Part shown: one piece after another, positions 24,956 through 59,069 of the stretch
Position numbering within the stretch: the stretch's first letter is position 1
How the letters are laid out: every line of letters begins with the position of its first letter
DNA from: Sphingobium sp. Ant17
GTDB lineage: Bacteria; Pseudomonadota; Alphaproteobacteria; Sphingomonadales; Sphingomonadaceae
Assembly: GCF_000588875.1 (NCBI RefSeq)
Contig: NZ_JEMV01000007.1
Location: 6,077 to 70,076, forward strand
Length of the DNA: 64,000 nt
Direction: 5' to 3'
Notes under the pieces: generated by a model
What the model saw: the letters and a program-made list of their open reading frames with translations, nothing else
What the model was told of the DNA's origin: nothing
The model's database searches: none
Position numbers and translations under genes: made by a program

Positions 24956-24959
24956 CGGG

Positions 24960-30062: not shown

Positions 30063-30722
30063 TTAAGCGTGCTGGCGTAGCCGCCGTAAGGCCGCAATAT
30101 CTAACGCTGCAGCAACATAATCCTGGTTTGAAAAGCTTGTCGAGAACCGATCATAAGCTTCAGCTATTACTTGTCCAGGAACATCAGATAGTTCTCGTGC
30201 CCAAGCATAAGCCAAGGTTGGCAAGCCGAGTATGGTGTATCGCTGGAGCAAATTTTCACGCGCGATCGCGGCGACGATAGTCAAAAGCAGGCGTTGCGCC
30301 GCGATGGCAAAATCAACTTTGTCGGCCGATTGCAGCGAAATCTGAACAGCCTCCTGATGCCGCCAGATCGACTCCCGGACGTGTTTCAGATCTGTATATG
30401 TCATTCTAATAAGGCACACTGACTCCATCGCGGCGAGGCTGTCGAGCTGCTCCTCGACCTTCACGCGGTCGCGCCGCGTAAAGCGGTTAGCGTGAGGACC
30501 ATACTCAAGAAACCCTCCTAGGAGCAGTTCCTCCATGACCTGTAGTCCCCATCCCCGTTCGCCTGCAATTTCGTCGAGTTCGTTGGGAAGGGCGGTGCTG
30601 TGCAGCGCATACCGCCCAGCCACGATATCGACCTTCAATGTTTCGAGGCGAGGGTCTGATGGACGGGTGAGGGCGCCATAGGCTTTCTCATATATTGCGA
30701 GATGGGTGTGACGCTTCGACAT
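30063..30722 (-). CDS. GntR-like regulator (divergent), last gene of purine operon
   Basis: 219-aa protein that looks like a degenerate GntR/FadR-subfamily regulator: a winged-HTH-like region (LETLKVDIVAGRYALHSTAL, LQVMEELLLGGFLEYGP) and an all-helical C-terminal domain (RMTYTDLKHVRESIWRHQEA, NLLQRYTILGLPTLAYAW). It would sense a small carboxylate or intermediate and control the operon. It lies downstream of the purine-degradation genes on the same strand, after a 317-bp gap. A FadR-type TTGTCcGACAA site is found at 39423, ahead of the operon. Confidence 0.55.
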   Translation of the reverse strand: MSKRHTHLAIYEKAYGALTRPSDPRLETLKVDIVAGRYALHSTALPNELDEIAGERGWGLQVMEELLLGGFLEYGPHANRFTRRDRVKVEEQLDSLAAMESVCLIRMTYTDLKHVRESIWRHQEAVQISLQSADKVDFAIAAQRLLLTIVAAIARENLLQRYTILGLPTLAYAWARELSDVPGQVIAEAYDRFSTSFSNQDYVAAALDIAALRRLRQHA

Positions 30723-31039
30723 GGCGAGTTCATAGAATGGACAACGTCACTCCAGCAACTGAGTATCACCCAATCGCTTCCCCGCGACCATAGATCCGCA
30801 AATGTCCGCGCGGATCCGTGTGTTACACATGACACCTCGGTGCAGTCACAGAGTCTGCGGTTCACTACCTTGTCGTCGTCACATAGGAACGGTCTGCTGC
30901 CGGCCAAAATCACGAGATCGAAACGGCGAGCGAGGTCGCGATGCACAGCGTTATACTCGCGTCCCGTCGCCATGACGAAATTGAGGATGCCCGTAGATCT
31001 GCCGCTTCCGTCAGATTTATCCAGGCCTTCCATCGCAGG
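30723..31039. other. Gap upstream of the GntR-like gene
   Basis: No gene I can support. A minus-strand frame from 31033 runs through and overlaps the GntR-like gene in another frame, but it has no ribosome site or family resemblance. The gap probably holds the regulator's own promoter. Confidence 0.4.
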
Positions 31040-31180
31040 CTATTCCGAATAGGCCAGAAGCTCCGCCTGCATTCGGGCGGCGTCCTCGACCCAGTGAGTG
31101 ATCTTGTTCACCCAGGCGTCGAAAGTGCCCATCAGCTTGATGGGATATTGCGCAGCTGGGATCCTGACCGACTTCTTCAA
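31040..31180 (-). CDS. Candidate 46-aa small protein coupled to GNAT gene
   Basis: A TTG start overlaps the GNAT stop codon as TTGA, and the frame gives a 46-aa product beginning MKKSVRIPAAQYPIKLMGTF and ending MQAELLAYSE before a TAG. Composition is protein-like (amphipathic helix AWVNKITHWVEDAARMQAEL). The same TTGA overlap is used by the nitronate monooxygenase gene in this window. Family unknown; it could also be the tail of a decayed gene. Confidence 0.35.
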   Translation of the reverse strand: MKKSVRIPAAQYPIKLMGTFDAWVNKITHWVEDAARMQAELLAYSE

Positions 31181-31794
31181 AGGCGTTTCGCCCAGACTTG
31201 CATTGGGTGCGGCGAGCTGGCGGCGGCGTTGCGGTCCTTCCAGTCAATGGTGGTCGTCGCACCCTCGATGGGCGTGTAGCCGCGCTTGCGCCAGAACATT
31301 CTCAAATCGCGCGGGTCGGATGGCCGAGATGGATGTTCGTCTTCGCGCACGACCACACAGAAGGCCGCAGAGGAAGCTCCCGCTGATCGAGCCGCTGCCT
31401 CGCGATGGTCAAAGAATGAATGACCAATGCCCTTGCCCCTGAACTGCGGTAGCAGGACCGATTCTCCGAAATAGAAGGTGCTTGCGGTGTCGAAGCCGGC
31501 TTCTACGAGCGGCTCCGATATTGAGCGCGGTTGTCCGCTCAATGGGGAGGCAGTGGCCAGCCCGATGACGATGTCCGACACGCGCGCAACGATCATTACG
31601 GCGGCGGGGTCTCCAAGAAACGCAGACAGATACTCCATTTCATAGGCCATGCTGCCGTCATAGAGATAAGGCCAGTTGCGAAACACCGTCATGCGTAGGA
31701 TGGCGAGCATTCGCAGCGTTGCGGGGTCGCGCAAAGCGGGTTCAACTACCACCATGTTTGCGAGATCCGCGGTTGCCCTGTTGTCGGATGCCAT
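31177..31794 (-). CDS. GNAT-family N-acetyltransferase
   Basis: 205-aa GNAT protein. The acetyl-CoA pyrophosphate-binding loop is seen in VLLPQFRGKGIGHSFFDHRE (Q-x-x-G-x-G/A). The C-terminal strand region RDLRMFWRKRGYTPIEGATTT is typical. It acetylates an amine of unknown identity. It starts 2 nt after the stop of the NTF2-like gene and is transcribed with the formaldehyde and purine genes. Confidence 0.82.
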   Translation of the reverse strand: MASDNRATADLANMVVVEPALRDPATLRMLAILRMTVFRNWPYLYDGSMAYEMEYLSAFLGDPAAVMIVARVSDIVIGLATASPLSGQPRSISEPLVEAGFDTASTFYFGESVLLPQFRGKGIGHSFFDHREAAARSAGASSAAFCVVVREDEHPSRPSDPRDLRMFWRKRGYTPIEGATTTIDWKDRNAAASSPHPMQVWAKRL

Positions 31795-31796
31795 GC

Positions 31797-32207: not shown

Positions 32208-32234
32208 ACGTTCGTTCCTGGCCGATTGTAGGGG

Positions 32235-33077
32235 TCAGCGGTAAAGCCGCTCGGCATGCCAGCCAAGCTGCTCCGCCATGAAGGATGATATGAAATAATA
32301 GCTGTGATCATATCCCGCGCGGAAGTTGAGCGTGAGATTGATGCCGACCGCGTCGCAGGCGGCGCGGAGCAAATCTGGCCGCAGTTGCTTCTCCAGGAAT
32401 TCATCGTCGCCGCCCTGGTCGACGAGTAGGTCCGGCACCCGGGCGCCGTCCTCTATCAGCGCAACGGCGTCATGCCTGCGCCACGCGGGTCCTTCGGTGC
32501 CTAGATAGCCGCCGAGAGCCTTTTGTCCCCACGGAACCTGGCTTGGCGCGACTATTGGAGAAAAGGCCGACACCGCCTTGTAGCGCTCGGGACAACTGAG
32601 GCCAATCGTCAGTGCGCCATGTCCGCCCATGGAGTGCCCCATGATTGACTGGCGTGTCATGTCGGCGGGGAAATGCTGCGCGACGAGGGATGGCAGTTCT
32701 TCGGTGACGTAGCTCCACATCCGGTAGGTTGCCTGGAATGGCTCTTCGGTCGCATCGACGTAAAAGCCGGCGCCCAGGCCAAAATCAAAGGCAGCAGCTG
32801 GATCGTCCGGCACGCCTTCGCCCCTAGGGCTCGTGTCCGGCGCCACAAAGATTAGGCCGAGTTCAGAACATGCCCGACGAAACTCACCTTTTTCGGTGAC
32901 GTTCGCTTGGGTGCAGGTCAGGCCAGAGAGGTACCAGACGACCGGCAGCGGCTTTGTCCTGGCGGCGTCCGGCAAGAAGACGGAGAAGGTCATGTCGGTT
33001 CCGGTCGCGATCGACGCGTGACGATAAACTCCCTGAACACCATCGTGGGTACGGTAGGACGCCACTTTATCAAACAT
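32235..33077 (-). CDS. fghA: S-formylglutathione hydrolase
   Basis: Esterase-D-type serine hydrolase of about 280 aa. It has the nucleophile motif IMGHSMGGHGALTIGL, the catalytic Asp region LLVDQGGDDEFLE and the His region RAGYDHSYYFISSF. The start at ATG 33077 (MFDKVASYRTHDGVQGVYRH) has GGAG upstream. It hydrolyses S-formylglutathione to formate and glutathione, the second step of glutathione-dependent formaldehyde oxidation. Its first step, frmA, lies at the head of the same operon. Confidence 0.94.
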   Translation of the reverse strand: MFDKVASYRTHDGVQGVYRHASIATGTDMTFSVFLPDAARTKPLPVVWYLSGLTCTQANVTEKGEFRRACSELGLIFVAPDTSPRGEGVPDDPAAAFDFGLGAGFYVDATEEPFQATYRMWSYVTEELPSLVAQHFPADMTRQSIMGHSMGGHGALTIGLSCPERYKAVSAFSPIVAPSQVPWGQKALGGYLGTEGPAWRRHDAVALIEDGARVPDLLVDQGGDDEFLEKQLRPDLLRAACDAVGINLTLNFRAGYDHSYYFISSFMAEQLGWHAERLYR

Positions 33078-33321: not shown

Positions 33322-33657
33322 TCAGCTGCCTCGATATGTCGAGTAGGCGAAGGGTGATACGAGCAGGGGCACATGATAGTGGCCGCCTTCGTCCGCGACG
33401 CCGAAAGCGATTGGCACAAGGTCGAGGAAGGGGGGCTTGGGCAGGGAGACTCCCCGCGTGCGGAAATAGTCGGCAACCTGGAAGTCGAGACGATAGGGGC
33501 CTGGCTTCAAATGTTTGGGCATCTCAGGGCAGCGTCCATCGGCATTTGTCTCACCCTCAAAGATCAGTCCGCCGTCACCATTCGAAAGAGATAAGCGCAT
33601 CCCTTTGGCCGGGCAGCCTGCAGCCGTATCAAGTACGTGCGTCGACAATGTGCTCAC
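33322..33657 (-). CDS. uraH: 5-Hydroxyisourate hydrolase
   Basis: Transthyretin-like protein of 111 aa. It shows the family landmarks: STHVLDTAAGCPAKGMRLSL at the start, YFRTRGVSLPKPPFLDLVPI in the middle and the C-terminal HYHVPLLVSPFAYSTYRGS, with the YRGS tail diagnostic of HIU hydrolase rather than transthyretin. It converts 5-hydroxyisourate to OHCU. Its ATG overlaps the flavoprotein stop (ATGA), fitting a direct hand-off from urate hydroxylation. Confidence 0.95.
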   Translation of the reverse strand: MSTLSTHVLDTAAGCPAKGMRLSLSNGDGGLIFEGETNADGRCPEMPKHLKPGPYRLDFQVADYFRTRGVSLPKPPFLDLVPIAFGVADEGGHYHVPLLVSPFAYSTYRGS

Positions 33658-35060
33658 AAAGCAATCTCCCTGGCACCGGTGAACTCTTCCTCGTCATAAG
33701 CGAGGTGTTCAGCGAGCAATGAGAGCGCATCTTCCTCGAAGAGATCGCGTGCGACGCCGTCCACAAGACGGGGCAGCGCGTACTTCAAACCGGAAAGGGC
33801 GGAGGCCGACAGGCCAAGGCTGACCAGGCCGCTATAGTTGAACGCAAAAATCCCGCTTAACTTCTCAGTGGCTTCTGGAGTGCGGCCCAGATACTGGAAG
33901 CCGGGCCCGAGATACGGATGATCGTCGATTACGGCATTCCTCAAATCATTTGGCGCATTGTAGCAATCGCGCCAGCGAAGTATGTCGCCCGCGAACGCGC
34001 TCAGCTCCGGACGGAGCGCCGGGTCAGTGACAAGACCGGTCGAAAGCAGAATGAAGTCGAATTCTTCGACGCCTTGGGGCGTGGTGACAATTACCTTGTC
34101 GTCTGCTGTCTGCTCGACCCCGAGCCAAGGTGCCCCGACATGCAGGTGGAAGCCGGGAAGGGCCATTGCCCGGTCAAATGTATCGTTGGTTGGCGGTTGG
34201 TTGCGCGCGAAGAAGCTCAGCATGAAGCGATATTTGTCCGCATCCGACAAACCGACATAGCGACCTGTGATTCCGGTCGCCTCCATATGGCGTATTGGGT
34301 TTACGCGCTGGAAGACGGAGCGCCGCATATAGACATGCGTTTCGGCCACACCTTCCTTCAAGCCATACTGGGCGTTGTCGAATGCAGATGCGCCAGCCCC
34401 CAGTATTCCGATCCGTTTTCCGACCAACCTAGAAAAATCAACAGGGCCGGAGGTGTGAGCGTACAAATCAGGCGACAAAGCTTTCTCGATCATGTTCGGA
34501 ACATGCCAGTTACCGCCGCCCTGAATGCCCGTCGCAAGGATCACCTTGCGCGCCAAGTAGGTCCTGTGGTTGGTGACGAGGCTGTAGAGGCCGGTTCCTG
34601 TCCGCCCAATCCGCTCTAGCCGGGTATTGTTTTCCACAGGCAGCTTCAATACCCGGCGATACCAACGCAGATAGTCCATCCAGACACCACGCGGAATTTT
34701 GTCGAGCGCTGCCCATCCTTCAGCGCCATGCTGCGTTTCGTACCAGGCCCGAAATGTGAGTGATGGCAAGCCAAGGTCGATGGACGTGATATGCTTGGGC
34801 GTGCGCAACGTGATCATCCGCGCATAGGTTTCCCATGGGCCTTCCTGACCAGCCGGATTTTCGTCCAGGACTAAGATATTGTCGACACGTTCGCGCAGGA
34901 GGCCAAATGCGGCGCCAAGACCGCTCTGGCCGCCGCCGACAATGACGACATCGTGAACATGGCCGTCCTCCGATCGGCGAGGCCGTACCCATGTCGCGCC
35001 GCCATAGCACAGCGCAGCAAGATCCCAGTTGACCTGTCGTTCGAGTTTTTTGAGGGTCAT
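33654..35060 (-). CDS. FAD/NAD(P)H-dependent monooxygenase, probable urate hydroxylase
   Basis: 468-aa flavoprotein with two dinucleotide folds: VVIVGGGQSGLGAAFGLL near residue 40 and GKRIGILGAGASAFDNA near residue 220, the layout of Baeyer-Villiger/flavin-containing monooxygenases. No urate oxidase (uricase), PuuD or HpxO-type gene is seen, and this gene sits exactly between uraD and uraH with 4-nt overlaps. Conversion of urate to 5-hydroxyisourate is therefore the natural inference; a methylurate substrate is also possible. The start is ATG 35060; a longer open frame to 35615 overlaps uraD and is not credible. Confidence 0.82.
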   Translation of the reverse strand: MTLKKLERQVNWDLAALCYGGATWVRPRRSEDGHVHDVVIVGGGQSGLGAAFGLLRERVDNILVLDENPAGQEGPWETYARMITLRTPKHITSIDLGLPSLTFRAWYETQHGAEGWAALDKIPRGVWMDYLRWYRRVLKLPVENNTRLERIGRTGTGLYSLVTNHRTYLARKVILATGIQGGGNWHVPNMIEKALSPDLYAHTSGPVDFSRLVGKRIGILGAGASAFDNAQYGLKEGVAETHVYMRRSVFQRVNPIRHMEATGITGRYVGLSDADKYRFMLSFFARNQPPTNDTFDRAMALPGFHLHVGAPWLGVEQTADDKVIVTTPQGVEEFDFILLSTGLVTDPALRPELSAFAGDILRWRDCYNAPNDLRNAVIDDHPYLGPGFQYLGRTPEATEKLSGIFAFNYSGLVSLGLSASALSGLKYALPRLVDGVARDLFEEDALSLLAEHLAYDEEEFTGAREIAL

Positions 35061-35545
35061 GCTTCCCGCACCTCCTGAAGACGCAGTTTCACTATCTTTC
35101 CAATCTCGAAGATCGCGGCCGCCAGTTCGGTCTTGCGGTCGTTCGCGAGACGGCTCTCCATCGCGGCGAGGATGCCGGCTTTGTCGGTCAGCCGGACGCA
35201 GACGATGAAGGGGAAATCGAACCGATTGCGATAGGCGGCATTTAGGGTGTTGAAGCGCGTATATTCTGCCGGTGTCAGCCGGTCGAGCCCGACCGACGCC
35301 TGCTCGGCCGTGGACTCGGCGGTGAGCGTTCCGTCGATGGCCGCCTTGCCCGCCAGTTCGGGGTGCGAGCGGATGAGGGAAAGTTGCTCTGCTTCGCTTG
35401 CCCCTGCCACCACCTTCATCAGTCCAGCGTGGAGGTCCGCAAAGGGCCGACGCGCAGCGGCGCGTTTCACCACCCAAGGGCTGTGTTCGAACAGAAAGCC
35501 GAATTTTTCGACGAATTTGGCGTTGGAGAGGGCCGCGTCGCTCAT
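35057..35545 (-). CDS. uraD: 2-Oxo-4-hydroxy-4-carboxy-5-ureidoimidazoline decarboxylase
   Basis: OHCU decarboxylase of 162 aa. The motif IRSHPELAGKAAIDGTLTAE with catalytic His, and the FNTLNAAYRNRFDFPFIVCV strand-helix segment, are family hallmarks. It produces (S)-allantoin. The ATG at 35545 overlaps the allantoinase stop (ATGA), which fixes the start; an upstream GTG/ATG extension overlaps puuE and has no family residues. Confidence 0.95.
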   Translation of the reverse strand: MSDAALSNAKFVEKFGFLFEHSPWVVKRAAARRPFADLHAGLMKVVAGASEAEQLSLIRSHPELAGKAAIDGTLTAESTAEQASVGLDRLTPAEYTRFNTLNAAYRNRFDFPFIVCVRLTDKAGILAAMESRLANDRKTELAAAIFEIGKIVKLRLQEVREA

Positions 35546-36426
35546 GCCGGATGTGCCGCCAACCAGTGCCGCGCGATGTCGATCCGCCGCGCGACCCACG
35601 CATCACCGCTCGCAATCACATGATCGACGAACCGCGCCACCGCCAGTGCGCGCGCCGGCTTGCCCGCGATGCGCCCGTGCAGGCCGACCGACATCATGCG
35701 GCCGCCCTCCGTGCGGAGCATCTCAAATGTATCACGCAGGTAGCGAAAGAACTGCTCGCCTTCCGTAAACCCATTATAGGCGACCATCTTCATGTCGTTG
35801 ACGTCCAACGTATAGGGCACGATCAACTGCGCCTTCCCATGGCTACGGTCATAATAGGGCAGGTCGTCGGCATAGCTGTCCGCATCATAGACAAAGCCCC
35901 CTTCCTCCACGATCAGCCGAGCGGTGTTGGGGCTAGTACGTCCCTGATACCAGCCTAACGGACGCTCGCCGATCACTTGAGTGTGGAGTTCGATGGCTTC
36001 GGCGATATGGGCACGCTCGGTCGCCTCAGGGATATTTTGATAGTCGATCCAGCGAAGGCCGTGGCTGGCGATCTCCCACCCGGCTGCCTGCATCGCGGCA
36101 ACTGCCTCGGGGTTGGTGGCCAGCGCCCTGGCCACGCCGAACACCGTCACGGGCGCGCCTGCTTGGGTGAATAACCGGTACAGCCGCCAGAAGCCCGCGC
36201 GGCTGCCATATTCATAGAGGCTTTCGATCGCCATCGCCCGCGCGCCGGTCTGGCTCGCCGCGCCGACCATCTCCGAAAGGAAGGCTTCGGATTCGCCGTC
36301 GCCATTGTCAACGCTGCGCTCCGCCCCTTCCTCATAGTTGATTACGAACTGCACCGCGACACGCGCACCGCCGGGCCATTGCGCATCGGGCAGGGTGGCG
36401 CCATAGCCGACTAAGTCGCGGGTCAT
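35542..36426 (-). CDS. puuE: Allantoinase, PuuE (polysaccharide-deacetylase-like) type
   Basis: 294-aa member of the metal-independent PuuE allantoinase family. Visible are MTRDLVGYGATLPDAQWPGG at the start, FVINYEEGAERSVDNGD and ASHGLRWIDYQNIPEATERA, where the NodB-type motif lies. It opens the allantoin ring to allantoate. It overlaps both allC and uraD by 4 nt. The PuuE type, not the amidohydrolase AllB type, is used here. Confidence 0.95.
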   Translation of the reverse strand: MTRDLVGYGATLPDAQWPGGARVAVQFVINYEEGAERSVDNGDGESEAFLSEMVGAASQTGARAMAIESLYEYGSRAGFWRLYRLFTQAGAPVTVFGVARALATNPEAVAAMQAAGWEIASHGLRWIDYQNIPEATERAHIAEAIELHTQVIGERPLGWYQGRTSPNTARLIVEEGGFVYDADSYADDLPYYDRSHGKAQLIVPYTLDVNDMKMVAYNGFTEGEQFFRYLRDTFEMLRTEGGRMMSVGLHGRIAGKPARALAVARFVDHVIASGDAWVARRIDIARHWLAAHPA

Positions 36427-37685
36427 GCCGCGAGCCCCTCGATGAAAGTCAGCATGGCGGCCAGAGCCTGTTCCACATCGGCTTCGATCACATCTTCCGC
36501 CGGATTGTGGCTGATGCCGCCAGTGCAGCGGATGAACAGCATCGCGGTCGGAGCGAGGGCGGCCATCACCATCGCGTCATGGCCTGCTCCGCTGACGAGG
36601 CACCGGGGTTCCTGCCCGGTCGCGGCTACGGCGGCAGCAAGGCGGTCGATCAGCGCCGGATCGCACGGACTGGCGGCGAGCATCTGGGTCTCCTCGGCGA
36701 CAACCGTGACGCCGCGCGACGTGGCGATAGCGTGCAGCGCGGCGAGAATCTCTCCCGTGGCGGCATCCCGCTCCGCATCGCTGCCCGACCGCACATCGAC
36801 GGTGAAGTCCACCCGGCCCGGCACAACATTGGTCGCGCCTGGCATTACGGTCATTCGGCCGACCGTGGCGACGAGATCGGACTTGCCCGCCCGTGCCACG
36901 CTCTCAATCGCGAGAATGGCTTCGGCTGCGGCAGTCAGCGCGTCGCGGCGCAGGTGCATAGCGTTAGTGCCGGCATGGCCCGGCACGCCGGTGACGTTGA
37001 CGGTGATCCGCCGCTGCCCGGCAATGGCGGTGACGACGCCCAGCGCTAACCCCTCTGCCTCCAGCAACGGGCCCTGCTCGATATGCGCCTCCAGATAGGC
37101 AGCGACGCTGCCCGGCGCATAAGCCGCGGCGGCGAAAGCGGTGGTCGCAAGGCCAACGCTGGCGAGCGCCGCATCGAGCGTCACGCCGTCCCCGTCGGTG
37201 ATCGCCAGTGCGGCGGGATCGAGCGTGCCGGCGACGGCGCGGCTTGTTAGCATAGAGGCGGGAAAGCGCGATCCCTCCTCATCCCCAAAAGCAGCGACGT
37301 CGATAGCGAAGGGCAGGCGGCGCCCCTTGGCGGCCAGGGCGGCGATGCATTCGATACCAAGCATGATGCCGAGCGGACCGTCGAACGCGCCCCCATCGCG
37401 AACGCTGTCGATATGACTGCCGATCAGCAACAGCGGAGCGTCACTGGTGCCCTTATAACGTCCGATAAGGTTGCCGGCGGGGTCGGTGCGCACCTCCATC
37501 CCCGCCTCCTCCATCCAGTCGGCGAGGCGCGCACAGGTCGTCTGATGCGCAGGGGTCAGATAGGGCCGGGTGAGAGCGTCCTGCTCCTCGCTGAACGGCG
37601 GGCGGGTCAGCGATCGGCAGCGCTCGACCGCGCGCGCGCCGCCGGCAGAGATCGTCTGTGCAGACGTGAAGGTTGCCTGCGACAT
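36423..37685 (-). CDS. allC: Allantoate amidohydrolase / ureidoglycolate amidohydrolase family (M20)
   Basis: 420-aa M20/M28-type di-metal amidohydrolase. Metal-binding motifs are LLIGSHIDSVRDGGAFDGPL, AFGDEEGSRFPASMLTSRA, YLEAHIEQGPLLEAEGLAL and the C-terminal CTGGISHNPAEDVIEAD. It hydrolyses allantoate to ureidoglycine/ureidoglycolate plus CO2 and ammonia; carbamoylase-type substrates cannot be excluded. The ATG at 37685 overlaps the previous stop (TGATG). Confidence 0.9.
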   Translation of the reverse strand: MSQATFTSAQTISAGGARAVERCRSLTRPPFSEEQDALTRPYLTPAHQTTCARLADWMEEAGMEVRTDPAGNLIGRYKGTSDAPLLLIGSHIDSVRDGGAFDGPLGIMLGIECIAALAAKGRRLPFAIDVAAFGDEEGSRFPASMLTSRAVAGTLDPAALAITDGDGVTLDAALASVGLATTAFAAAAYAPGSVAAYLEAHIEQGPLLEAEGLALGVVTAIAGQRRITVNVTGVPGHAGTNAMHLRRDALTAAAEAILAIESVARAGKSDLVATVGRMTVMPGATNVVPGRVDFTVDVRSGSDAERDAATGEILAALHAIATSRGVTVVAEETQMLAASPCDPALIDRLAAAVAATGQEPRCLVSGAGHDAMVMAALAPTAMLFIRCTGGISHNPAEDVIEADVEQALAAMLTFIEGLAA

Positions 37686-38098
37686 CACTCGAGACCGAAA
37701 CGGATCGACTGCGCACCTTCCCACAGTGTCATTCTGCCCAGCGCGCGGAGATTCTCGTTACCCTCGACGATGGTGAGGAAATGGTTTCCCGCGAGTGGAC
37801 CAGCCTTGCTGCCGAACGCGACACCGCCATAGGCCAGCAGAATCTCGGTCTCGCTTACGCCCTTAGGATAGAAGATGAATTCGCCTGGGGCTGGGTGGCG
37901 GGTCGTGTTCTCCCATGGCAGGGCAAATTCCTGGTCGCCCATGGGGATCCAAACGCCTTCGCCGCTCCAGCGGACATGAATCACCCGCTCCTCATAGGGG
38001 AGGAGCGCTTTAAACGCTGCGCAGGTCGCTGGCGCTAGTTCTTCCTCGAGACGTGCACGAAAGGAAAAAGGGCCCGCGGTGATGGAAAGCATGGTCAT
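37685..38098 (-). CDS. DUF3830 family protein (cyclophilin-like fold)
   Basis: 137-aa protein with strong DUF3830 features: ARLEEELAPATCAAFKALLP, VIHVRWSGEGVWIPMGD, PAPGEFIFYPKGVSETEILL and FGSKAGPLAGNHFLTI. Members occur in purine and hydantoin-type clusters, but the activity is unproven. Its position just before allC, at the place where a ureidoglycolate-processing enzyme would be expected, makes a role with a ureido intermediate plausible. It is not the AllA-type ureidoglycolate lyase by sequence. Confidence 0.82.
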   Translation of the reverse strand: MTMLSITAGPFSFRARLEEELAPATCAAFKALLPYEERVIHVRWSGEGVWIPMGDQEFALPWENTTRHPAPGEFIFYPKGVSETEILLAYGGVAFGSKAGPLAGNHFLTIVEGNENLRALGRMTLWEGAQSIRFGLE

Positions 38099-38146
38099 AA
38101 TGGAAATCCGGATAAATTTATCGTTAGAGAGTGTCGGCTGAGATCG

Positions 38147-47664: not shown

Positions 47665-47707
47665 GTCCCGCATTCTTCGGACGGACCTTCGGGGTCGTCG
47701 AGCGGCT

Positions 47708-50596: not shown

Positions 50597-50794
50597 TCAA
50601 GGTTCTCCTATACCCATTTGGATGTCGGCCACCGACGAAGACATTGTTCAAAACGCCGCTGCAAGTCATTTACGGAGTGCCAGAACGGCTTCTAAAATTG
50701 CGCTCTGATGGTGACGATGTGCCGCCATTTTGTGAACAAACGTGTGCCGCCGATCTGTTCGGCCGCCCACTATGTCATTCCGATTGGCAAACGC

Positions 50795-51874: not shown

Positions 51875-52263
51875 ACCGGCACTCCGGGAAAGTTGATGCG
51901 GAACGCGTTGCCGTCGGGATCGCGCAGGACTGATTGATACCAGCCGTAGTAGGTCGCAAACGGCTCCTTTACGGTGGCCGCGCCGAGCGACCCCGCCTTC
52001 TCGGTCAGGGCGCGCACTTCTTCCGGGCTATCCACGTTGAAGGTTTGGAACACGCGATCGCCGGGAGCGGTCTGGGGCTCCATGCCGAGGAGTTCGTACG
52101 CGCCGATTCCGCTGAACCCCAGCGAAGTCCCGCCGGCGGCGAAGCCGCGGAAGATCGGCGAGCGGCTCTCCATATATTCCGTAAAGCCGAAAAGCGTACT
52201 GTAGAACTCAGCTAGCCGGTCGATGTCGGCGGTGTAGATGTTTGTATAAGCCAGAGCGGGCAT
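51871..52263 (-). CDS. VOC-superfamily (glyoxalase/bleomycin-resistance-like) protein
   Basis: 130-aa protein with paired beta-alpha-beta modules: YTNIYTADIDRLAEFYSTLF at the start and EPFATYYGWYQSVLRDPDGN at the end. It may be a lyase, dioxygenase or binding protein for an intermediate. Its stop overlaps the Rieske start by 4 nt and it starts 11 bp after oxygenase 4's stop, so it is embedded in the oxidative operon. Confidence 0.85.
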   Translation of the reverse strand: MPALAYTNIYTADIDRLAEFYSTLFGFTEYMESRSPIFRGFAAGGTSLGFSGIGAYELLGMEPQTAPGDRVFQTFNVDSPEEVRALTEKAGSLGAATVKEPFATYYGWYQSVLRDPDGNAFRINFPGVPV

Positions 52264-52274
52264 GATTTTTTCCT

Positions 52275-53258
52275 TTACGCTGCGAGGCCGTAGGTCTTGC
52301 GATACATTTCCGCGATGTGTCCGCCGACGGTGGTGGCGGCGTAGTCCGGCTTGCCATTTTCCGGCATGCAGGTCGGAGCGCAGCTCACCTCATAAAAGTA
52401 ATTCGGGTCGAAGAAGGTCGGAACAGAGTAGCGATCACGGCCGCTCTGGTTGTTCAGCACGCGATGCATGTTTGCGTGATACAGTCCGTTGGTGAGGAGA
52501 CGGACCATCTCCCCGAGATTGATGATGAACGTGCCGGGGATCGGCGGGGCCGCGATCCATTCGCCCGCCGCATTCTCGACTTCCAGGCCGCCAACATCGT
52601 CCTGAAGGAGGATGGTGATCATGCCCCAGTCTGTGTGCGCACCCGCGCCGATCTGGTTGAATGCGGCATCAGCTGGCTGAGGCCCGTATTTCAGAAGGCG
52701 GCCGTTGAATAGCGGCTCCCTCAAACCTTCGGCGAAGTAATCCTCTGGCAGGTCCAGCGACAGGGCAATCAGGCTCATCAGGTGCCGTCCGATCCGGAAC
52801 ATCTCGTCCACATAGCCCTCATAGCGGGGGCGAAAGCCCTCCGGCTTTTCCGGCCACTGGTTAGATCCGCAGTTGGGAACGCCGTCGCGGACATAGGGGT
52901 GATCGTCGGCCAGATCGACACCAATCAGGAAGCCCTCCTTGAGGTCGGGCGGTGAGCCGTCGTCGAGGGTCTGGAGACCGGGCGATTCATAACCGCGCGT
53001 GCAGCTTGACTTGCTCGCGTCGACCTTCATTTTCTCATCGACGGGCAAGTCGAAAAATTGCTTAGCCAGCTCGAGCTGGCCGTCCATGGTTGCCTGCGGC
53101 ACGCCGTGGTTGGTAATGTAAAAGAAACCCGTGTCACGGGCGGTCTTGTGGATCTCCCACGCGACCGCCTTCTTGAGATCTGTGTCGTCGGCGAAGCTCG
53201 GACCCAGGTCGATCACGGGGATGTTATCTGCCGGCTTCGGCGGTGTGTAGACGATCAT
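52275..53258 (-). CDS. Isopenicillin N synthase-type Fe(II)/2-oxoglutarate oxygenase 4
   Basis: 327-aa oxygenase. It aligns with oxygenase 1 without gaps through the first 280 residues (MIVYTPP versus MHVYTPP starts, same motif positions): iron ligands H208, D210 (GAHTDWGMIT) and H265 (ANMHRV), R276/S278 in RYSVPTFF. The differences lie mostly in the active-site-lining middle part, suggesting related but distinct substrates. It starts 26 bp after oxygenase 5. Confidence 0.93.
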   Translation of the reverse strand: MIVYTPPKPADNIPVIDLGPSFADDTDLKKAVAWEIHKTARDTGFFYITNHGVPQATMDGQLELAKQFFDLPVDEKMKVDASKSSCTRGYESPGLQTLDDGSPPDLKEGFLIGVDLADDHPYVRDGVPNCGSNQWPEKPEGFRPRYEGYVDEMFRIGRHLMSLIALSLDLPEDYFAEGLREPLFNGRLLKYGPQPADAAFNQIGAGAHTDWGMITILLQDDVGGLEVENAAGEWIAAPPIPGTFIINLGEMVRLLTNGLYHANMHRVLNNQSGRDRYSVPTFFDPNYFYEVSCAPTCMPENGKPDYAATTVGGHIAEMYRKTYGLAA

Positions 53259-53284
53259 CGCGCGTTCCTCAGTTGGGATCGGCC

Positions 53285-54312
53285 TCAGGCCGTTTCAGCG
53301 TCCTTGAATTTCGGGGTGTCGTTCATCTGGTTCATCTTCATCTCCAGATGCTCAATCGAGGTCGTCTTGGCGTACTTTGGGGCCTTCTCGACGGCGCAGG
53401 TGGGGATGCACTCAATCACTGCGTCGTAATTGGGTTGGTGGAAGAAGACCAAGGACTGGCGACGGCTGCCTACGCCCAGATCACGCGGCGGATTGACGAC
53501 ACGGTGCATCGTCGACACCCAATCGTCGTTGGTCCACTGCGCCATCAGGTCGCCGAGGTTGATGATGAAGGCGCCGGGGACAATGGGCACCGCTTCCCAG
53601 CGGCCATCGGAAGTCTGGACTTCGAGGCCGCCAGGCTTATCTTCGGTCTTCAGGATGGTGAGGCCACCATAATCGGTATGCGCGCCAGCACGCAGCTGAC
53701 CTTCCTCCAGCGCTTCGGGCTGATCGGGGTAGTTGCTGACAACCATGTTGGTGATGTGCTTATCGATCTTGTCCGCGAACCAGTCTGGCGAAAGGTCGAG
53801 AGCCCGTGCGCACAGCTCCATCAGAAGTGCGGCCAGCTTCTCCATTTCGCGATAGTAGGCCGTCATCGCAGGCTTAAATTCCGGCACGTCGCGTCGGGCC
53901 AGATGTTTTCGTGGAAGATTCGCTGAGCTGTGGAGGTCGAGAAATACGGATCGGCATCGTTGAAGTCGAAACGGCCGAAGTTGAAATACTCGCGATGGTC
54001 GGGCTTGGCCTCCTCCTCGCCGATGGTACTGGCGAGATTTCCGGTTTCGATGCCGAAGTAGCCTCGATAAATCTCAGTGCTGGGCGAGCGGTACTTGCCC
54101 TTCTCCTCGGGGGAGAGGTCAAACAGGTTACGACTTGCAACCGACGCGCCTTCGATGATGGCGGCGGGCACACCGTGGCCGGAAACGACCAGGAAACCGA
54201 TGCTGCGGGCAGCTGCGCCGACCTTGTCGGCCACAGCCTGCTTTTCCGCTTCAGAACCGGTGCGCGCTGGAGTGAGATCGATAATTGGAACTACGCTACC
54301 GTCGAATTTCAT
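53285..54312 (-). CDS. Isopenicillin N synthase-type Fe(II)/2-oxoglutarate oxygenase 5 (frameshifted)
   Basis: The N-terminal half (VVPIIDLTPARTGSEAEK, FLVVSGHGVPAAII, FHENIWPDAT) and the C-terminal half (VPEFKPAMTAYYREMEKL, GAHTDYGGLTI, TMHRVVN, RRQSLVFFHQPN) are in adjacent frames. One base is missing near 53885. Rejoined, about 341 aa, it is a close relative of oxygenase 3. All iron and 2-oxoglutarate ligands are present in the second half. It is either a recent pseudogene or a sequence error. Confidence 0.82.
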
Positions 54313-54313
54313 T

Positions 54314-55702
54314 TCAGCCTCCTATAGTGCCGGACGTCGCGGTCGGCAGGCCACGGATGTCAGTGTCCCGCTGATCAGCATCGCTTTCATTGCGATTCCG
54401 TCCAGCGCGGAGAAACAGGTTGAGCGCAATCGCAGTCACAATGCCAAGCAGAACTCCGCTATGCGTGAATGGTGCGAGGGCAGGGGGCGCCGAGGCAAAG
54501 AAGCGATCGGAAAAGGTTGGGATAAGACCCACGCCCAAACTTATCGCGACAACAAGCAAATCCTCTCGGGAATGGTCAAGGCCTGCTGCCGCTAACGAGC
54601 GGATGCCCGACGCAGCGACCATTCCGAAGAGGACAAGCGCCGCGCCGCCTAGAACGCTCGGCGGGACCGCCGCAACGACGGCCGACAACTTCGGAAAAAG
54701 TGCAAGAATGAGTAGGATTACGGCGGCGCCAGCGCAGACGAAGCGACTCCGCACCCCTGTCATGCTCACGAGTGCGATGTTTTGCGCATAGGACGTATAC
54801 GGGAAGCTATTGAAAAGGCCGCCGATGACCGCGCCCATGCAGTCGGCACGCAGGCCTCGCGAAAGGTCCCGGGTGGTAACAGGCCGATCCACTATGTCAC
54901 CGAGCATTGTCAGCATCCCGCTCGACTCTACGAGCGTAACAAGCAGAACAACAACCATCGAAGCTATCGCGCCTAGGTCGAAGATGGGCATGCCGAAGTG
55001 GAACGGGGTGATCAGTTGCAACGCGGGGGCCGCCGTCGCATCAGTGAGGTCCACCAAACCCATTGCGGCCGCGAGTATATAACCGGACGCCATCCCTATA
55101 AGGATTGCACAGTTCGCGAGGAATCCCACCCCGAACCGAGTGACAAGAAGAATGATTCCAACCGTCACGCTAGCGAGCAGCAGATGCGTTGGTGATCCAT
55201 AGTCCTTGGCACCCTGACCACCGGCGGACCAGTCCACCGCAATTCCCATGAGCGAAAGACCGATGAGCAGCATCGCGGTGCCGGTGACGGTCGGTGTAAG
55301 CACTGACCGCAACCGTCCAATTAGAGGGACAAGCGGGATCACGATCAATCCAGCAGCGATAGCTGCGCCATACACCGCTGGGAGACCCATACCTGGCTGG
55401 TTCGCGATCGCAATTGACGGCATGACACCTACAAAGGTCACGCCCATGATGATCGGCAAACGAATTCCAAACGCTCCGACGCCTAGCGACTGCAGGAGTG
55501 TGACGAGACCGCACGCGAAGAGGTCGGCGCTAACGAGATAGGCGGTATTTTCAGACGAAAGGTGAAGCGCAGAGGCTACCAGCAGGGGAACCGTGATCGC
55601 GCCGGCATACATTGTGAGGACATGCTGGAGGGCGAGCGCTCCCAGCGCCCCGACTTGCGGGACGCTGTCGACTGGATGGACCTCGGCGCGATTAGAACTC
55701 AT
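54314..55702 (-). CDS. NCS2-family xanthine/uracil-type permease
   Basis: 462-aa nucleobase:cation symporter-2 with about 14 hydrophobic segments. The family start GALALQHVLTMYAGAITVPL and the middle motif VVLLVTLVESSGMLTMLGDI match xanthine/urate/uracil carriers. It should import a purine (xanthine, urate or a methylated form) with protons. Its start overlaps the receptor stop by about 11 bp, linking inner- and outer-membrane uptake in one transcript. Confidence 0.92.
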   Translation of the reverse strand: MSSNRAEVHPVDSVPQVGALGALALQHVLTMYAGAITVPLLVASALHLSSENTAYLVSADLFACGLVTLLQSLGVGAFGIRLPIIMGVTFVGVMPSIAIANQPGMGLPAVYGAAIAAGLIVIPLVPLIGRLRSVLTPTVTGTAMLLIGLSLMGIAVDWSAGGQGAKDYGSPTHLLLASVTVGIILLVTRFGVGFLANCAILIGMASGYILAAAMGLVDLTDATAAPALQLITPFHFGMPIFDLGAIASMVVVLLVTLVESSGMLTMLGDIVDRPVTTRDLSRGLRADCMGAVIGGLFNSFPYTSYAQNIALVSMTGVRSRFVCAGAAVILLILALFPKLSAVVAAVPPSVLGGAALVLFGMVAASGIRSLAAAGLDHSREDLLVVAISLGVGLIPTFSDRFFASAPPALAPFTHSGVLLGIVTAIALNLFLRAGRNRNESDADQRDTDIRGLPTATSGTIGG

Positions 55703-57989
55703 ATTTCACCGAGCCGATGACTTGGCGGGGCGGAATATACATGTCGCTGGTCGTGAAGCTGCCGAACGGGTTGGAATAACGTGACGCGATCCCCGCCTTG
55801 TCGAAGACGTTGGTCAACGTCACGGCGATCGTCCAATGCGTGTCCTGCGGCGTAAAGGCGAAGTTGGCGTTCACCTGCGTATAGTTAGGAACCACGTCGC
55901 GGGCGCCATCGTTGAAGATGCGATACTGGTACTTACCGCGATAGATAAACTCGGCGTGGGATTTCAGCGTGCCGAACGAAGCGACCTCCAGCGTGTGGCT
56001 GATCCCGATGGCACCCTGCCACTTGGGTAGCTTAGGTGGCAGGTTTCCGTTGGTGTTGCGAACCGCAAGCGCTCGTTGGCCAATCGTGTAGCCGTCAAAA
56101 GGACCAAAACCGAGAGCTGCCGCTGCCAGTGTTGCCTGATGAGCGCGCGAAGGGTCGAGAGTGATATAGTCTCCGACCAGTTCGCCATCGAGATAGGTCA
56201 GGTTGCCATCGAGCTTCAGGTTTCCAGTGATCTGGACCGTGGCTTCAGCCTCGGCACCCCAGATCCGGGTCTTGGGTACGTTGGACACACCGCCTTGGAA
56301 TGGGATGGGGTCTTCTTCCTGATATTGCAGGTTCTTATAGTCGTAGAAGAAAGCGGCCGCATTGAAGGTGACTCGGTTGTCGAAAAAGCGGTTTTTGGTG
56401 CCTAACTCATAGGCCCAGACGTGCTCGGGCTGGTAGGTCAGCGGCACAAGCAGCGGCGTGCTGTTGTTGCTAACGCCACCTGGCTTGTAGCCACGGGACA
56501 CGCTGGTATAGACCATGTTGCGCGGGGTCAGCTCGAAATCGAGTTCACCCTTGCCGGTCAGCGCGTTCTCCTTGGTCTGCGCATATACCGTCGGTGCGAA
56601 GATATTGAACAGCGTGCTGTTGCTGCTTGTGAAATAGTCATGGTTATAGCGCAAGCCAACGGTTCCACTTAGCCGATCTGCAAACTTCCACTTCGCTTGA
56701 GCAAACCCAGCATAGCTGTAGCGACGCTGAGCTGAGTTCAGGGCATAGTTGAGGTTGTAGGGATAATTGGCGAAAGTGAGCGGCAGCGTCAGATTATAGG
56801 TCGGATTGGCATCCGTCCCCGCGTATTCGAGGATGTCTTGACCGAGCTTTTGGTAAAGGAAATAGGCGCCCACGATGTAGGTGAATGGTCCATTGCCATT
56901 GGAACTCAGGTTCAGCTCCTGGCTGAACGCATCGACCCGATTGTTCCAATAAGGCTGAGCATCATAGGCGCCAGTAGTAGCGAAATCGGAGCGATCGACG
57001 TCGATCTGGTTGTGGTTCCGGGTCTGCTGGTAGGAGGTCAGCGACTTTATGGTGCCAAAGCCTAGGTCATATTGCAGGTCGGCATACGTCAGGAAGAAAT
57101 CGAGCTTGTATTTGTTGGGATAGTCCTGCGAGATACGACGCGGATCGGGATCAAGATCGTCGAGGTTCTTCTGCGCAGCTCCATGCTCGTCGGCATTGAA
57201 ATATTGAGCGGTCAGCTGCGCGGAGAAGCGATCCGACGGCGTCCAGAGTACCGACAGCTTGGCCGAAATGCGGTCAGCATCGTCGAGGCCATAATTGCCG
57301 TAGGCTGAGCCAAGACTAGTCTGCTTCGCGAAGCCTTTATGATAGTAGCGCTGAACCGTTCCACGAATTGCGAGCGTATCAGTCAGCGGCACATTCAGCG
57401 TCGCCGTCGCACGGATTAGGTCATAATTGCCGCCCTCAATCTGAGCAGAACCACTAAGTGCCTCTATGCTCGGCTTTTCGGTAATCGCGTTGATGATACC
57501 GCCGGTTGCGCTCTGCCCAAATACGGTTCCTTGCGGTCCGCGCAGCACTTCGACCCGCTGCAGATCCAGGAAATCCTGCTGCAGCGCATAGGGACTGGCT
57601 ACATAAACGCCGTCGATATGGAAAGACGTGCCCGGCTCGGCGCTCAGGTTATCTGAAGCCTCATAACCGATGCCGCGGATCGAGACGACCCGAACAAAGC
57701 TGCCGCTGTTGGCGACAGTTAGGCCCGGCACGAAGCCGTTCATGTCAATGAGTTGGGTGATGTTCGACTGCTTGAGCGTGTCATTGGACAGCGCAGTAAG
57801 CGCGAGTGGAGCCCGCTGGAGCGTCGTGGCCTGCTTTTCGCCAGTGACGATGATGTCGCCTGCGTTTACGCTTGCAGCATCAGCATCGGCGGCCACCGGA
57901 ACCTGCGCATTTGCTGCCGCGCTGAGTCCGAGTGCCGCCGGAAACACAGCCCCTACGAGAAACTTCGATTTGCCCCGCATAATTTTCAT
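55692..57989 (-). CDS. TonB-dependent receptor 2
   Basis: 765-aa outer-membrane receptor with an intact C-terminal strand (RQVIGSVKYEF). Signal peptide ends near SAAANAQVP. The plug starts DIIVTGEKQATTLQRAPLAL and carries VEVLRGPQGTVFGQSATGG. It is a paralogue of receptor 1 (same plug signature and near-identical C-terminus). It is the first gene of module B's minus-strand operon and divergent from LysR 2. The co-encoded NCS2 permease argues that it takes up a purine-like ligand, or a larger precursor carrying one. Confidence 0.93.
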   Translation of the reverse strand: MKIMRGKSKFLVGAVFPAALGLSAAANAQVPVAADADAASVNAGDIIVTGEKQATTLQRAPLALTALSNDTLKQSNITQLIDMNGFVPGLTVANSGSFVRVVSIRGIGYEASDNLSAEPGTSFHIDGVYVASPYALQQDFLDLQRVEVLRGPQGTVFGQSATGGIINAITEKPSIEALSGSAQIEGGNYDLIRATATLNVPLTDTLAIRGTVQRYYHKGFAKQTSLGSAYGNYGLDDADRISAKLSVLWTPSDRFSAQLTAQYFNADEHGAAQKNLDDLDPDPRRISQDYPNKYKLDFFLTYADLQYDLGFGTIKSLTSYQQTRNHNQIDVDRSDFATTGAYDAQPYWNNRVDAFSQELNLSSNGNGPFTYIVGAYFLYQKLGQDILEYAGTDANPTYNLTLPLTFANYPYNLNYALNSAQRRYSYAGFAQAKWKFADRLSGTVGLRYNHDYFTSSNSTLFNIFAPTVYAQTKENALTGKGELDFELTPRNMVYTSVSRGYKPGGVSNNSTPLLVPLTYQPEHVWAYELGTKNRFFDNRVTFNAAAFFYDYKNLQYQEEDPIPFQGGVSNVPKTRIWGAEAEATVQITGNLKLDGNLTYLDGELVGDYITLDPSRAHQATLAAAALGFGPFDGYTIGQRALAVRNTNGNLPPKLPKWQGAIGISHTLEVASFGTLKSHAEFIYRGKYQYRIFNDGARDVVPNYTQVNANFAFTPQDTHWTIAVTLTNVFDKAGIASRYSNPFGSFTTSDMYIPPRQVIGSVKYEF

Positions 57990-58012
57990 TCCAAAATCCC
58001 CGCTTCGAAAGG

Positions 58013-58028
58013 GCGATCACCTGATCGC
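58013..58028. promoter_or_regulatory. Candidate operator GCGATCA-cc-TGATCGC
   Basis: A perfect inverted repeat with 2-nt spacer lies 24 bp before the receptor 2 start and about 100 bp before the LysR 2 gene. It is in the shared divergent promoter region. LysR sites usually have longer, less perfect dyads, so another regulator or a 5'-leader hairpin is equally possible. Confidence 0.35.
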
Positions 58029-58157
58029 TCGGTTGACTCGCCCTCTCGCTTTTTTGCTGTGCGTCAAAAGTGCCATTGAATTGCGTCCTGATCCATCGCA
58101 GAATACAGCAACGCCTGTTCGCAAAATGTGATCACTCACCAATTCTGGAGATTTGCG

Positions 58158-59069
58158 ATGTTACTTGGTCGAGCTGCGATCTATTTCGACGAAGTTGCGC
58201 GGCGAGGCGCGCTTCGCAGAGCAGCAGATGTGCTTCATATTGCCCCCTCCGCTGTTGATCGACAGATCATCCAGCTCGAGGAGGAGCTCGGAACTAAGCT
58301 TTTTGAGCGCACTCCGTCCGGTATGCGCATGACCGCAGCCGGGGAATTGCTAATCGACGGCGTGCGTCGCTGGCGTCGCGACCTACAGCGGATTCGATCG
58401 GAGATCGACAATTTGGTGGGATTGCGCAGGGGCAGTGTGGCCATTGGTCTGGTTGAAGGCGCCACAGAATTCATGGCGTCCGCTGTGTCGGCATTTCAGC
58501 AGCACTATCCTGCGATTCAGTTCAAGATGGAAGTGTTTGGAGCTCAAGGCGTCATAGACCATGTGCTTTCTGGCGAAATTGACGTTGGTGTCACCTTCAA
58601 TCCGCCGGACAATCCAACAATTAGGCTGGATCGGACAATGATCTACCGGCTCGGACTTATCGTAAAGCCGGGCCATCCGTTGGCTGATCGAAAAGAGGTA
58701 ACGCTCTCGGAATGCGTCAGCTTCCCCCTCATCGTGCCAAGCGAAAATCTCTCCTTGCGACGTGTCCTTGATCTTGCATGGTCGCGACATGTGGGCGGCA
58801 CGCCACGCGCCGCGGCTGAGGTCAACAGCATCGGCCTGATCAAATCCCTGACAATGCGCGGGATGGGAATTGGGTGGCTGACCGCTTTCGATGCCATCAG
58901 CGAGATTGAGGAGGGTTCGCTCATTTTCATCCCTCTTTCTCATGAGAGAGTTGAACTCTCCACACTTTCAATCGTCAGTGCAGCTGGGAGAACATTGTCT
59001 GTACCGGCGTCGCTGCTCATCCAGCATCTTGCACAAACGATGGAAGAACATGGCGTCCCGGTAGTATGA
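58158..59069 (+). CDS. LysR-family regulator 2
   Basis: 303-aa LysR-type activator, complete. HTH: AIYFDEVARRGALRRAADVL followed by SAVDRQIIQLEEELGTKLFE. The effector domain has RGSVAIGLVEGATEFMASAV and GLIKSLTMRGMGIGWLTAFD. I start at ATG 58158; an ATG 30 nt upstream is possible. It is divergent from the receptor-permease-oxygenase operon, so it probably activates module B on sensing the substrate or an intermediate. It is the intact counterpart of the damaged LysR 1. Confidence 0.92.
   Translation: MLLGRAAIYFDEVARRGALRRAADVLHIAPSAVDRQIIQLEEELGTKLFERTPSGMRMTAAGELLIDGVRRWRRDLQRIRSEIDNLVGLRRGSVAIGLVEGATEFMASAVSAFQQHYPAIQFKMEVFGAQGVIDHVLSGEIDVGVTFNPPDNPTIRLDRTMIYRLGLIVKPGHPLADRKEVTLSECVSFPLIVPSENLSLRRVLDLAWSRHVGGTPRAAAEVNSIGLIKSLTMRGMGIGWLTAFDAISEIEEGSLIFIPLSHERVELSTLSIVSAAGRTLSVPASLLIQHLAQTMEEHGVPVV

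Follow-up and report, generated by a model that had tools for sequence, protein, structure and literature searches.

Two bacterial routes of caffeine breakdown have been described, the ndm and C-8 routes, and in P. putida CBB5 the ndm genes are flanked by frmA and frmB (PMC4408171). In K. pneumoniae, hpxDE convert hypoxanthine to xanthine and xanthine to urate (PMC7373994), and HpyO is a urate oxidase that is not homologous to HpxO (PMC4562309). A uric acid module has also been described on an Acinetobacter plasmid, in a paper whose main text does not contain the words caffeine, Rieske, oxoglutarate or isopenicillin (PMC10117892). Here we describe an island of about 27 kb in a 64,000-nucleotide stretch (the window) of Sphingobium sp. 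Ant17, contig NZ_JEMV01000007.1 (C7:6077-70076 of a 5.24-Mb draft genome with 199 contigs, 96% completeness and 6% contamination). Lying between transposon remains, it holds five 2-oxoglutarate (2OG)-dependent oxygenases, a Rieske oxygenase, a urate-to-ureide gene set, an NCS2 permease and the formaldehyde enzymes FrmA and FghA, a gene content already listed in the initial annotation and confirmed by family-model matches. We consider it rather probable that the island was acquired and serves the catabolism of N-methylated purines, in which 2OG-dependent enzymes would N-demethylate methylxanthines and possibly methylurates.

The five 2OG oxygenase genes all lie on the minus strand: dox1 (39495..40490; PF14226 and PF03171), dox2 (42848..43837), dox3 (43834..44859) and dox4 (52275..53258), the last three each matching DIOX_N and 2OG-FeII_Oxy, and dox5 (53285..54312), which is split by a frame change with one domain per piece. 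The N-terminal part of dox5 (53863-54312; DIOX_N) and its C-terminal part (53285-53887; 2OG-FeII_Oxy) occupy two frames, and an intact orthologue aligns across both, switching frame near 53890. The HxD...H and RxS motifs that mark the isopenicillin-N-synthase (IPNS)-type Fe(II)/2OG family are kept in dox1 to dox4 and in the C-terminal piece of dox5. Five of the six PF03171 matches in the genome fall in the island, within about 14 kb, so chance clustering is not an issue. The genes represent three subtypes, type I (dox1 and dox4), type II (dox2) and type III (dox3 and dox5), and dox1 to dox4 are candidate N-demethylases.

Relatives were scanned in one genome per species, giving 79 loci from the best 80 of 104 relatives (locus numbers, L, and genome numbers, G, are given where they tell entries apart), and a tree was built from 103 2OG proteins (123 before rows with identical cores were removed), dox5 not included. 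The dox1 clade has 20 rows (support 99/98): 11 lie near ndm genes, six near hpxD and two elsewhere (Gordonia and a Rhodococcus metagenome-assembled genome, MAG), beside dox1 itself, so that 17 of the 19 other rows have ndm or hpxD genes nearby. The five-row dox2 clade (100/83) comprises three ndm-associated rows, one hpxD-associated row and dox2, whose orthologue in S. terrigena is 64% identical and which has matches of 51-53% in Acinetobacter and Pseudomonadaceae clusters. Genes of L020, L028 (two) and L033 group with dox4 (100/100), the orthologues being 78-81% identical. A further clade (100/93) unites dox3 with the dox5-type proteins of L020, L028 and L033 and one protein of L035; the C-terminal piece of dox5 is 84-88% identical to the unbroken genes of L020, L028 and L033.

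Among plasmid proteins, dox1 is matched best (62%) by one from Paraburkholderia caffeinilytica CF1, encoded on plasmid p1 within a cluster that also has genes for NCS2, a TIM-barrel protein, NdmA, NdmB, NdmC, NdmD, NdmE, FrmA and FghA. NdmA and NdmB of this cluster were identified by comparison in the present analysis, and the other three genes we take to be NdmC, NdmD and NdmE from their order. A K. pneumoniae plasmid carries a dox1 relative (59%) with NdmB-, NdmC-, NdmD- and NdmE-type genes. On an Acinetobacter plasmid, two HpxD-type enzymes and three 2OG oxygenases accompany NCS2, FrmA, FghA, HpxO and allantoicase, with no Ndm gene in the 33 kb read. In the stretch read, P. putida plasmids combine NdmC/D/E with HpxD, HpxO and 2OG oxygenases of types I and II, and none of them is among the eight plasmid records in which NdmB was found at 1e-70. 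In the P. mandelii genome, NdmC is present and NdmA/B has no match at 1e-60. One P. putida plasmid carries the complete NdmABCDE set, and the 30.7 kb of it that were read contain no 2OG gene. Relatives of the proposed demethylases are thus found together with methylxanthine catabolism genes, and the island 2OG oxygenases, judged by sequence, are members of a group found in ndm and hpx clusters, of which many contain an NCS2 permease gene and some contain FrmA and FghA.

Three other loci were observed alongside these. Conjugative plasmid pKNA08 of Komagataeibacter nataicola (L113), from a kombucha tea culture, carries an NdmA/B/C-like cluster; no 2OG gene was seen across the 30.7 kb examined. 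The K. pneumoniae hpx cluster (L099) has a distant 2OG oxygenase near hpxE (at about 15059), 32% identical to an Acinetobacter type II protein. In Heliomarina (L042), a type I-like gene and a VOC gene are followed by an isochorismatase-fold hydrolase (5-12 kb), and the upstream open reading frames (ORFs) look, by eye, like a BMP-type ABC transporter; this locus is possibly a marine version of the pathway.

The initial annotation had suggested a comparative search for the same gene set. Sister islands are present in S. terrigena EO9 (L121) and in a New Zealand groundwater MAG (L020 and L122). In S. terrigena, the order is TonB receptor 2, NCS2, dox5-type, dox4-type, HpxD (76%), dox2-type (64%), amidase, AllC-type, class-V aminotransferase, PuuE, HpyO-type (62%), HIU hydrolase and FrmA (93%), shortly after which the contig ends. 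The groundwater MAG has TonB receptor 2, NCS2, dox5-type, dox4-type and VOC genes, then XdhA, XdhB and XdhC in the slot of the window's Rieske gene, and LysR1 (L020). The rest of its island (L020 and L122) comprises amidase, AllC-type, aminotransferase, PuuE, an AtzH-like protein, OHCU decarboxylase, HpyO-type (62%), an SBF-like transporter, FrmA (89%) and FghA (71%). All three islands retain FrmA. FghA is present in two of them, and in the third, that of S. terrigena, the contig ends soon after FrmA. Not one of four Rieske queries matched an ORF on the 27.6-kb MAG contig at E 1e-3, and the Rieske motif is absent from all of its ORFs. With FrmA, FghA and 2OG genes but no Rieske ORF seen there, the 2OG oxygenases are the only visible candidate for a source of formaldehyde in this sister island, which we regard as the strongest single argument that they may act as demethylases.

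The Rieske gene (50795..51874, minus strand; Rieske and VanA_C domains, with Rieske and mononuclear-iron motifs present) encodes an HpxD-type oxygenase, proposed here to be a xanthine hydroxylase. By sequence, its closest solved structures are SxtT, SxtDIOX, NdmA and NdmB. Over 92% of its length, the protein shares 47.6-48.2% identity with three listed plasmid proteins that carry the HpxD annotation 'molybdenum cofactor-independent xanthine hydroxylase subunit'. Identity is 47-52% with further plasmid relatives lacking that name and 56% with Acinetobacter proteins. In a tree of 42 Rieske proteins, it falls in a 14-row HpxD clade (99/98) that also takes in HpxD of Erwinia (L092) and Pantoea (L100) and the K. 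pneumoniae protein from the hpx cluster L099 (HIU hydrolase, OHCU decarboxylase, NCS2, HpxO, LysR, HpxD and HpxE), apart from a 13-row NdmA/NdmB clade (100/100). A long-branch row, L102, joins near the HpxD clade with a warning, and its membership is not needed for this placement. The gene identities, the placement with HpxD, the linkage of the 2OG clades to ndm and hpx clusters and the conservation of the sister islands are all read from sequence. The island enzyme most likely makes urate from xanthine, and demethylation would therefore rest on the 2OG enzymes alone.

The distribution of xanthine dehydrogenase (XDH) bears on this assignment. The Ant17 genome has MoCoBD_1 matches at four places, one of them PaoC and another closest to aldehyde oxidases, and no ORF scanned at the four reaches the cut-off of an XDH model. 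The cut-off of TIGR02965 is exceeded in 15 of 18 genomes, those without being Ant17, Gordonia (L015) and A. higginsii (L030). Only Ant17 and A. higginsii combine an HpxD-type gene (at 1e-70) with no XDH. In the groundwater MAG, the XdhABC locus is the genome's only TIGR02965 match, and the genome has no HpxD-type match. Strict mutual exclusion of HpxD and XDH was considered and ruled out, 10 of the 12 HpxD-bearing genomes also carrying XDH. The Ant17 genome yielded no NdmA/B match at 1e-60 (NdmB query) and no NdmC match at 1e-25.

From these gene assignments we infer the substrate, the N-demethylation chemistry of the 2OG enzymes, the methyl positions and the order of steps. The TonB-dependent receptors and the NCS2 permease would import a methylated purine, and the Fe(II)/2OG oxygenases would hydroxylate its N-methyl groups, the carbinolamine giving N-H and formaldehyde. 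FrmA and FghA would take formaldehyde to formate. The HpxD-type Rieske enzyme would oxidise the resulting xanthine to urate in place of the missing xanthine dehydrogenase, the HpyO-type monooxygenase, HIU hydrolase and OHCU decarboxylase would carry urate to allantoin, and PuuE and the AllC-type enzyme would degrade allantoin further. Of the pathway in the initial annotation, oxidative N-demethylation followed by urate degradation, the 2OG part gains from the clades found in ndm and hpx clusters, and the role of the Rieske enzyme as a demethylase does not stand.

To compare the two enzyme types across replicons, the presence of NdmA, NdmB, NdmC and 2OG types I, II and III was compiled by hand for 21 replicons or genomes, P. 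caffeinilytica p1 and P. caffeinitolerans counting as one row. Across these rows, which are related and in which plasmids are judged by the stretch read, the Ndm count falls as the 2OG-subtype count rises (Spearman -0.88; 0 of 20000 shuffles as low). NdmA, NdmB and NdmC stand with type I in five rows and with no 2OG gene seen in two (P. putida MT178 and K. nataicola). NdmB and NdmC stand with type I in four rows and with types I and II in one, and NdmC with types I and II in two. Rows without Ndm have types I, II and III in four cases (A. ursingii, A. higginsii, the window and S. terrigena) and types I and III in three. Type III is seen in none of the 14 rows with NdmC and in all seven without it, type II in one of 12 with NdmB and six of nine without. 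The two counts add up to three in 12 of the 21 rows, to four in six and to two in three. A genome-wide check found no NdmC match at 1e-25 in six of the seven rows counted as lacking it, and a further type II-like gene was seen in Stutzerimonas (57%) and A. ursingii (52%). Rows left out were Cupriavidus EM10 (L110), whose genes are fragmented, G859, of uncertain 2OG type, the short fragment L038, P. fulva (L111), which has a partial type I gene, L015/Gordonia and further loci lacking both Ndm and HpxD, L036-L091 in general, and the near-copies L018, L021, L022, L026, L027, L029, L032, L094, L112 and L114. NdmB sampling in two orders gave 0 of 390 and 2 of 399 genomes (one being the genome on which the sampling was centred), too few clusters for a test.

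This complementarity is a lead for position specificity, not a test. Our most speculative suggestion is that each 2OG subtype serves one methyl position, type I perhaps N1, type II N3 and type III N7. A wider proposal, which we put forward tentatively and hold to be rather doubtful, is a second, Rieske-independent bacterial route of complete caffeine demethylation. In such a route, three IPNS-like 2OG subtypes would take the N1, N3 and N7 methyls, replacing NdmA, NdmB and NdmCDE, and HpxD would oxidise the xanthine without molybdenum. The set would be disseminated by plasmids and islands on which Rieske and 2OG demethylases are freely combined.

The active sites were compared with fungal T7H, using its residues Phe292, Tyr217 and Arg190 (PMC4787775). 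In an alignment read by eye, dox1, dox2 and dox4 have Phe at position 292, Trp, Phe and Trp at 217, and Arg at 190, and dox3 and dox5 have Phe, Tyr and Val. The T7H-like residues of dox1, dox2 and dox4 agree with a flat base but go no further: the argument that such a pocket proves a nucleobase substrate was rejected, the same residues being present in an ancestral ethylene-forming enzyme. The predicted structure of dox4 (pLDDT 90, pTM 0.90) matches, at superfamily level only, 6jyv, the ancestral ethylene-forming enzyme, TraH, SpoC, TropC and T7H. T7H is itself able to demethylate 1-methylthymine.

Several observations weigh against 2OG-dependent demethylation or against its division by methyl position. 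The fold matches are generic to the superfamily, and dox3 and dox5 have no equivalent of T7H Arg190. Type I is carried by 19 of the 21 rows of the comparison, most of them having been found by its presence, and five Burkholderiaceae rows hold NdmA, NdmB and NdmC with one type I gene, so that in these rows no methyl position calls for a type I enzyme. Type III is a composite of two groups that are not orthologous, dox3/dox5 and an Acinetobacter 2OG protein (2OGc) outside the dox3/dox5 clade. A dox3-like gene lies elsewhere in two NdmC genomes (Comamonadaceae ALPHA2B, 48%; Stutzerimonas, 45%), and A. ursingii, counted as without NdmC, has a 48% NdmC-like protein elsewhere. As for the xanthine step, no HpxE-type reductase gene is present among the island proteins scanned, the nearest homologue (38%) lying elsewhere in the genome, and an HpxD-type gene at 1e-70 accompanies XDH in 10 of the 12 genomes (of 18) that have one.

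These points have to be set beside other readings of the same genes. The initial annotation took the Rieske enzyme to be an N-demethylase of the NdmA/B type, in keeping with its Rieske and VanA_C make-up, which is that of O- and N-demethylases, and with NdmA and NdmB among its nearest solved structures. Its place in the HpxD clade, well separated from NdmA/B, its 48% identity to HpxD against 26-31% to NdmA/NdmB-type rows, and the replacement of its gene by XdhABC in L020 make that assignment very improbable. Alternatively, the 2OG oxygenases could hydroxylate the purine ring at C2 or C8 of hypoxanthine or xanthine, FrmA and FghA being passengers. Fungal XanA is a precedent for 2OG-dependent hydroxylation of a purine ring, and the Ant17 genome has no XDH over the cut-off. 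IPNS-type dioxygenases also occur among riboswitch-linked purine-oxidation genes, with no function established for them in that account (PMC7373994). However, HpxD, or XdhABC in L020, already adjoins the 2OG genes for the xanthine step, and nine ndm genomes with type I genes (G296, G297, G300, G301, G303, G304, G305, G310 and G312) all have XDH over the cut-off. The retention of FrmA in every island and FghA in two also speaks against passengers, and we find ring hydroxylation unlikely.

A further reading centres on methylurates. The 2OG enzymes would then demethylate mainly methylurates, in known ndm hosts a terminal product of C-8 oxidation, and not methylxanthines. This would explain a type I gene in clusters that already hold NdmA, NdmB and NdmC, and it suits the presence of urate genes inside the island; methylurates formed from N-demethylated metabolites are described as accumulating with no further degradation (PMC4408171). 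Yet, among the ndm stretches with type I that were read, a urate gene of the reference set is found only in the P. putida plasmids (HpxO), and none in the P. caffeinilytica, Klebsiella, Caballeronia, Stutzerimonas, Hydrogenophaga and Comamonadaceae stretches. The NCS2 protein, moreover, scores as a xanthine permease. We therefore give methylurates as the main substrates a low probability, and retain 2OG-dependent demethylation of methylxanthines, possibly with methylurates, as the preferred reading.

The genes that would complete the pathway are encoded with the oxygenases; all named genes between 32235 and 57989 are on the minus strand, except lysR1 and a CocE/NonD hydrolase. In the urate-to-ureide set, HIU hydrolase (33322..33657; TIGR02962, 116 bits against a cut-off of 87), OHCU decarboxylase (35057..35545; TIGR03164, 191 against 96), PuuE allantoinase (35542..36426; TIGR03212, 498 against 425) and the AllC-type allantoate amidohydrolase (36423..37685; NF006775, 587 against 479) all exceed curated cut-offs. 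The FAD/NAD(P) monooxygenase (33654..35060; NAD_binding_9 / Pyr_redox_3) is a putative urate hydroxylase of the HpyO type by gene context and family type only, its 62% relatives adjoining the HIU hydrolase gene in S. terrigena (L121) and the OHCU decarboxylase gene in the groundwater MAG (L122). The formaldehyde enzymes are FghA, S-formylglutathione hydrolase (32235..33077; TIGR02821, 394 bits against 281.7; start at an internal ATG), and FrmA, S-(hydroxymethyl)glutathione dehydrogenase (38147..39259; TIGR02818, 606 against 544). The starts of FghA, the monooxygenase, OHCU decarboxylase and the AllC-type enzyme are our own readings. Transport would be served by the NCS2 xanthine-type permease (54314..55702; TIGR03173, 476 bits against 414), TonB-dependent receptor 1 (40521..42773; PF00593 and PF07715) and TonB-dependent receptor 2 (55692..57989; 73-79% relatives in L020, L028 and L033).

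Two regulator genes lie on the plus strand: lysR1 (44994..45539; PF00126 and part of PF03466), broken by a frame change near 45535 with similarity continuing in another frame to about 45901, and lysR2 (58128..59069; PF00126 and PF03466). A search for a xanthine riboswitch was negative: window positions 28000-64000 contain no Rfam match at E values up to 0.5, and 11 relative loci contain none that reaches the gathering score. The VOC (glyoxalase-fold) protein (51871..52263; PF00903) may handle a product or metal; in 19 of 43 loci, a VOC gene lies within 600 bp of a type I-like 2OG gene. A VOC gene also adjoins NdmA in P. putida MT178, with no clear similarity to the island VOC, and orthology between the two was not shown (E 0.014). 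Genes absent from the list in the initial annotation are those for the two TonB receptors, VOC, a DUF3830 protein (37685..38098; PF12903), an HbpS-like protein, the CocE/NonD hydrolase and an MFS transporter. The last three, at 45937-49069 and 50171-50596, have no match in the sister-island stretches (L020, L121 and L122).

The island is bordered by an IS3 transposase on the left (28203-29093) and an IS66 transposase on the right (61416-63086). The initial annotation counted the left edge (30063-30722) as part of the pathway region; the gene there matches no family and is not a pathway enzyme. G+C content is mostly 0.54-0.60 inside the island against 0.59-0.68 to its left, a modest difference. 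Relatives of dox1 at E 1e-60 occur in only two of 296 genomes of the same order, Ant17 itself and one 45% match with no purine gene of the reference set adjoining it, so the island looks acquired. Further left, a 388-aa fragment of a Tn3-family transposase (23939-25105) covers about the first quarter of its model, under the cut-off. A fatty-acid oxidation set (acyl-CoA dehydrogenase-like, FadB-like, thiolase, FadL-like and acyl-CoA ligase genes) adjoins the island at 13179-23058.

In the open literature, most subscription papers lying outside the search, we found no report of a 2OG/IPNS-type oxygenase in methylxanthine demethylation. If the proposal holds, it would give a purine-catabolic role to an enzyme family for which none was found in print, account for ndm clusters without NdmA or NdmB, and suggest candidate substrates for part of the riboswitch-linked IPNS-type dioxygenases whose function is left open in PMC7373994. 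As N-demethylases of methylxanthines needing neither NADH nor a reductase, such enzymes would offer simple biocatalysts with which to produce methylxanthines selectively and to remove caffeine. The analysis would also help to separate HpxD from NdmA in annotation. Homologues of ndmA and ndmD have been reported from coffee-berry-borer Erwinia S38/S43 (adjacent) and Klebsiella oxytoca (E 1e-42 to 2e-59; PMC8055839), and these calls, in Table 1 of that paper, may represent hpxD and hpxE.

Set beside known systems, the island 2OG oxygenases share with fungal T7H the superfamily and the HxD...H and RxS motifs, T7H itself acting on a free nucleobase. The Arg190 and Phe292 positions are kept in dox1, dox2 and dox4, with Trp or Phe for Tyr217; identity in the fold match is about 25%, dox3 and dox5 differ at Arg190, and the shared positions, also found in the ethylene-forming enzyme, are not diagnostic. 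Like the ndmABCDE caffeine cluster (P. putida CBB5 type; P. caffeinilytica p1), the island has NCS2, FrmA and FghA and is proposed to serve N-demethylation, and the P. caffeinilytica cluster includes a type I 2OG gene. In the island, however, no NdmA/B/C was found, five 2OG oxygenases are present instead, and urate-to-ureide genes lie inside. The Klebsiella hpx cluster (L099) resembles it in the HpxD-type Rieske enzyme, HIU hydrolase, OHCU decarboxylase, LysR and NCS2, whereas the island has an HpyO-type enzyme instead of HpxO, no adjoining HpxE, and, compared with the one distant 2OG gene of that cluster, five 2OG oxygenases together with formaldehyde genes. Acinetobacter plasmid pACI-3569 (L006) likewise combines three 2OG oxygenases (types I, II and another) with an HpxD-type Rieske enzyme, NCS2, FrmA, FghA and LysR1, and has HpxO and allantoicase where the Ant17 island has the HpyO-type and AllC-type enzymes.

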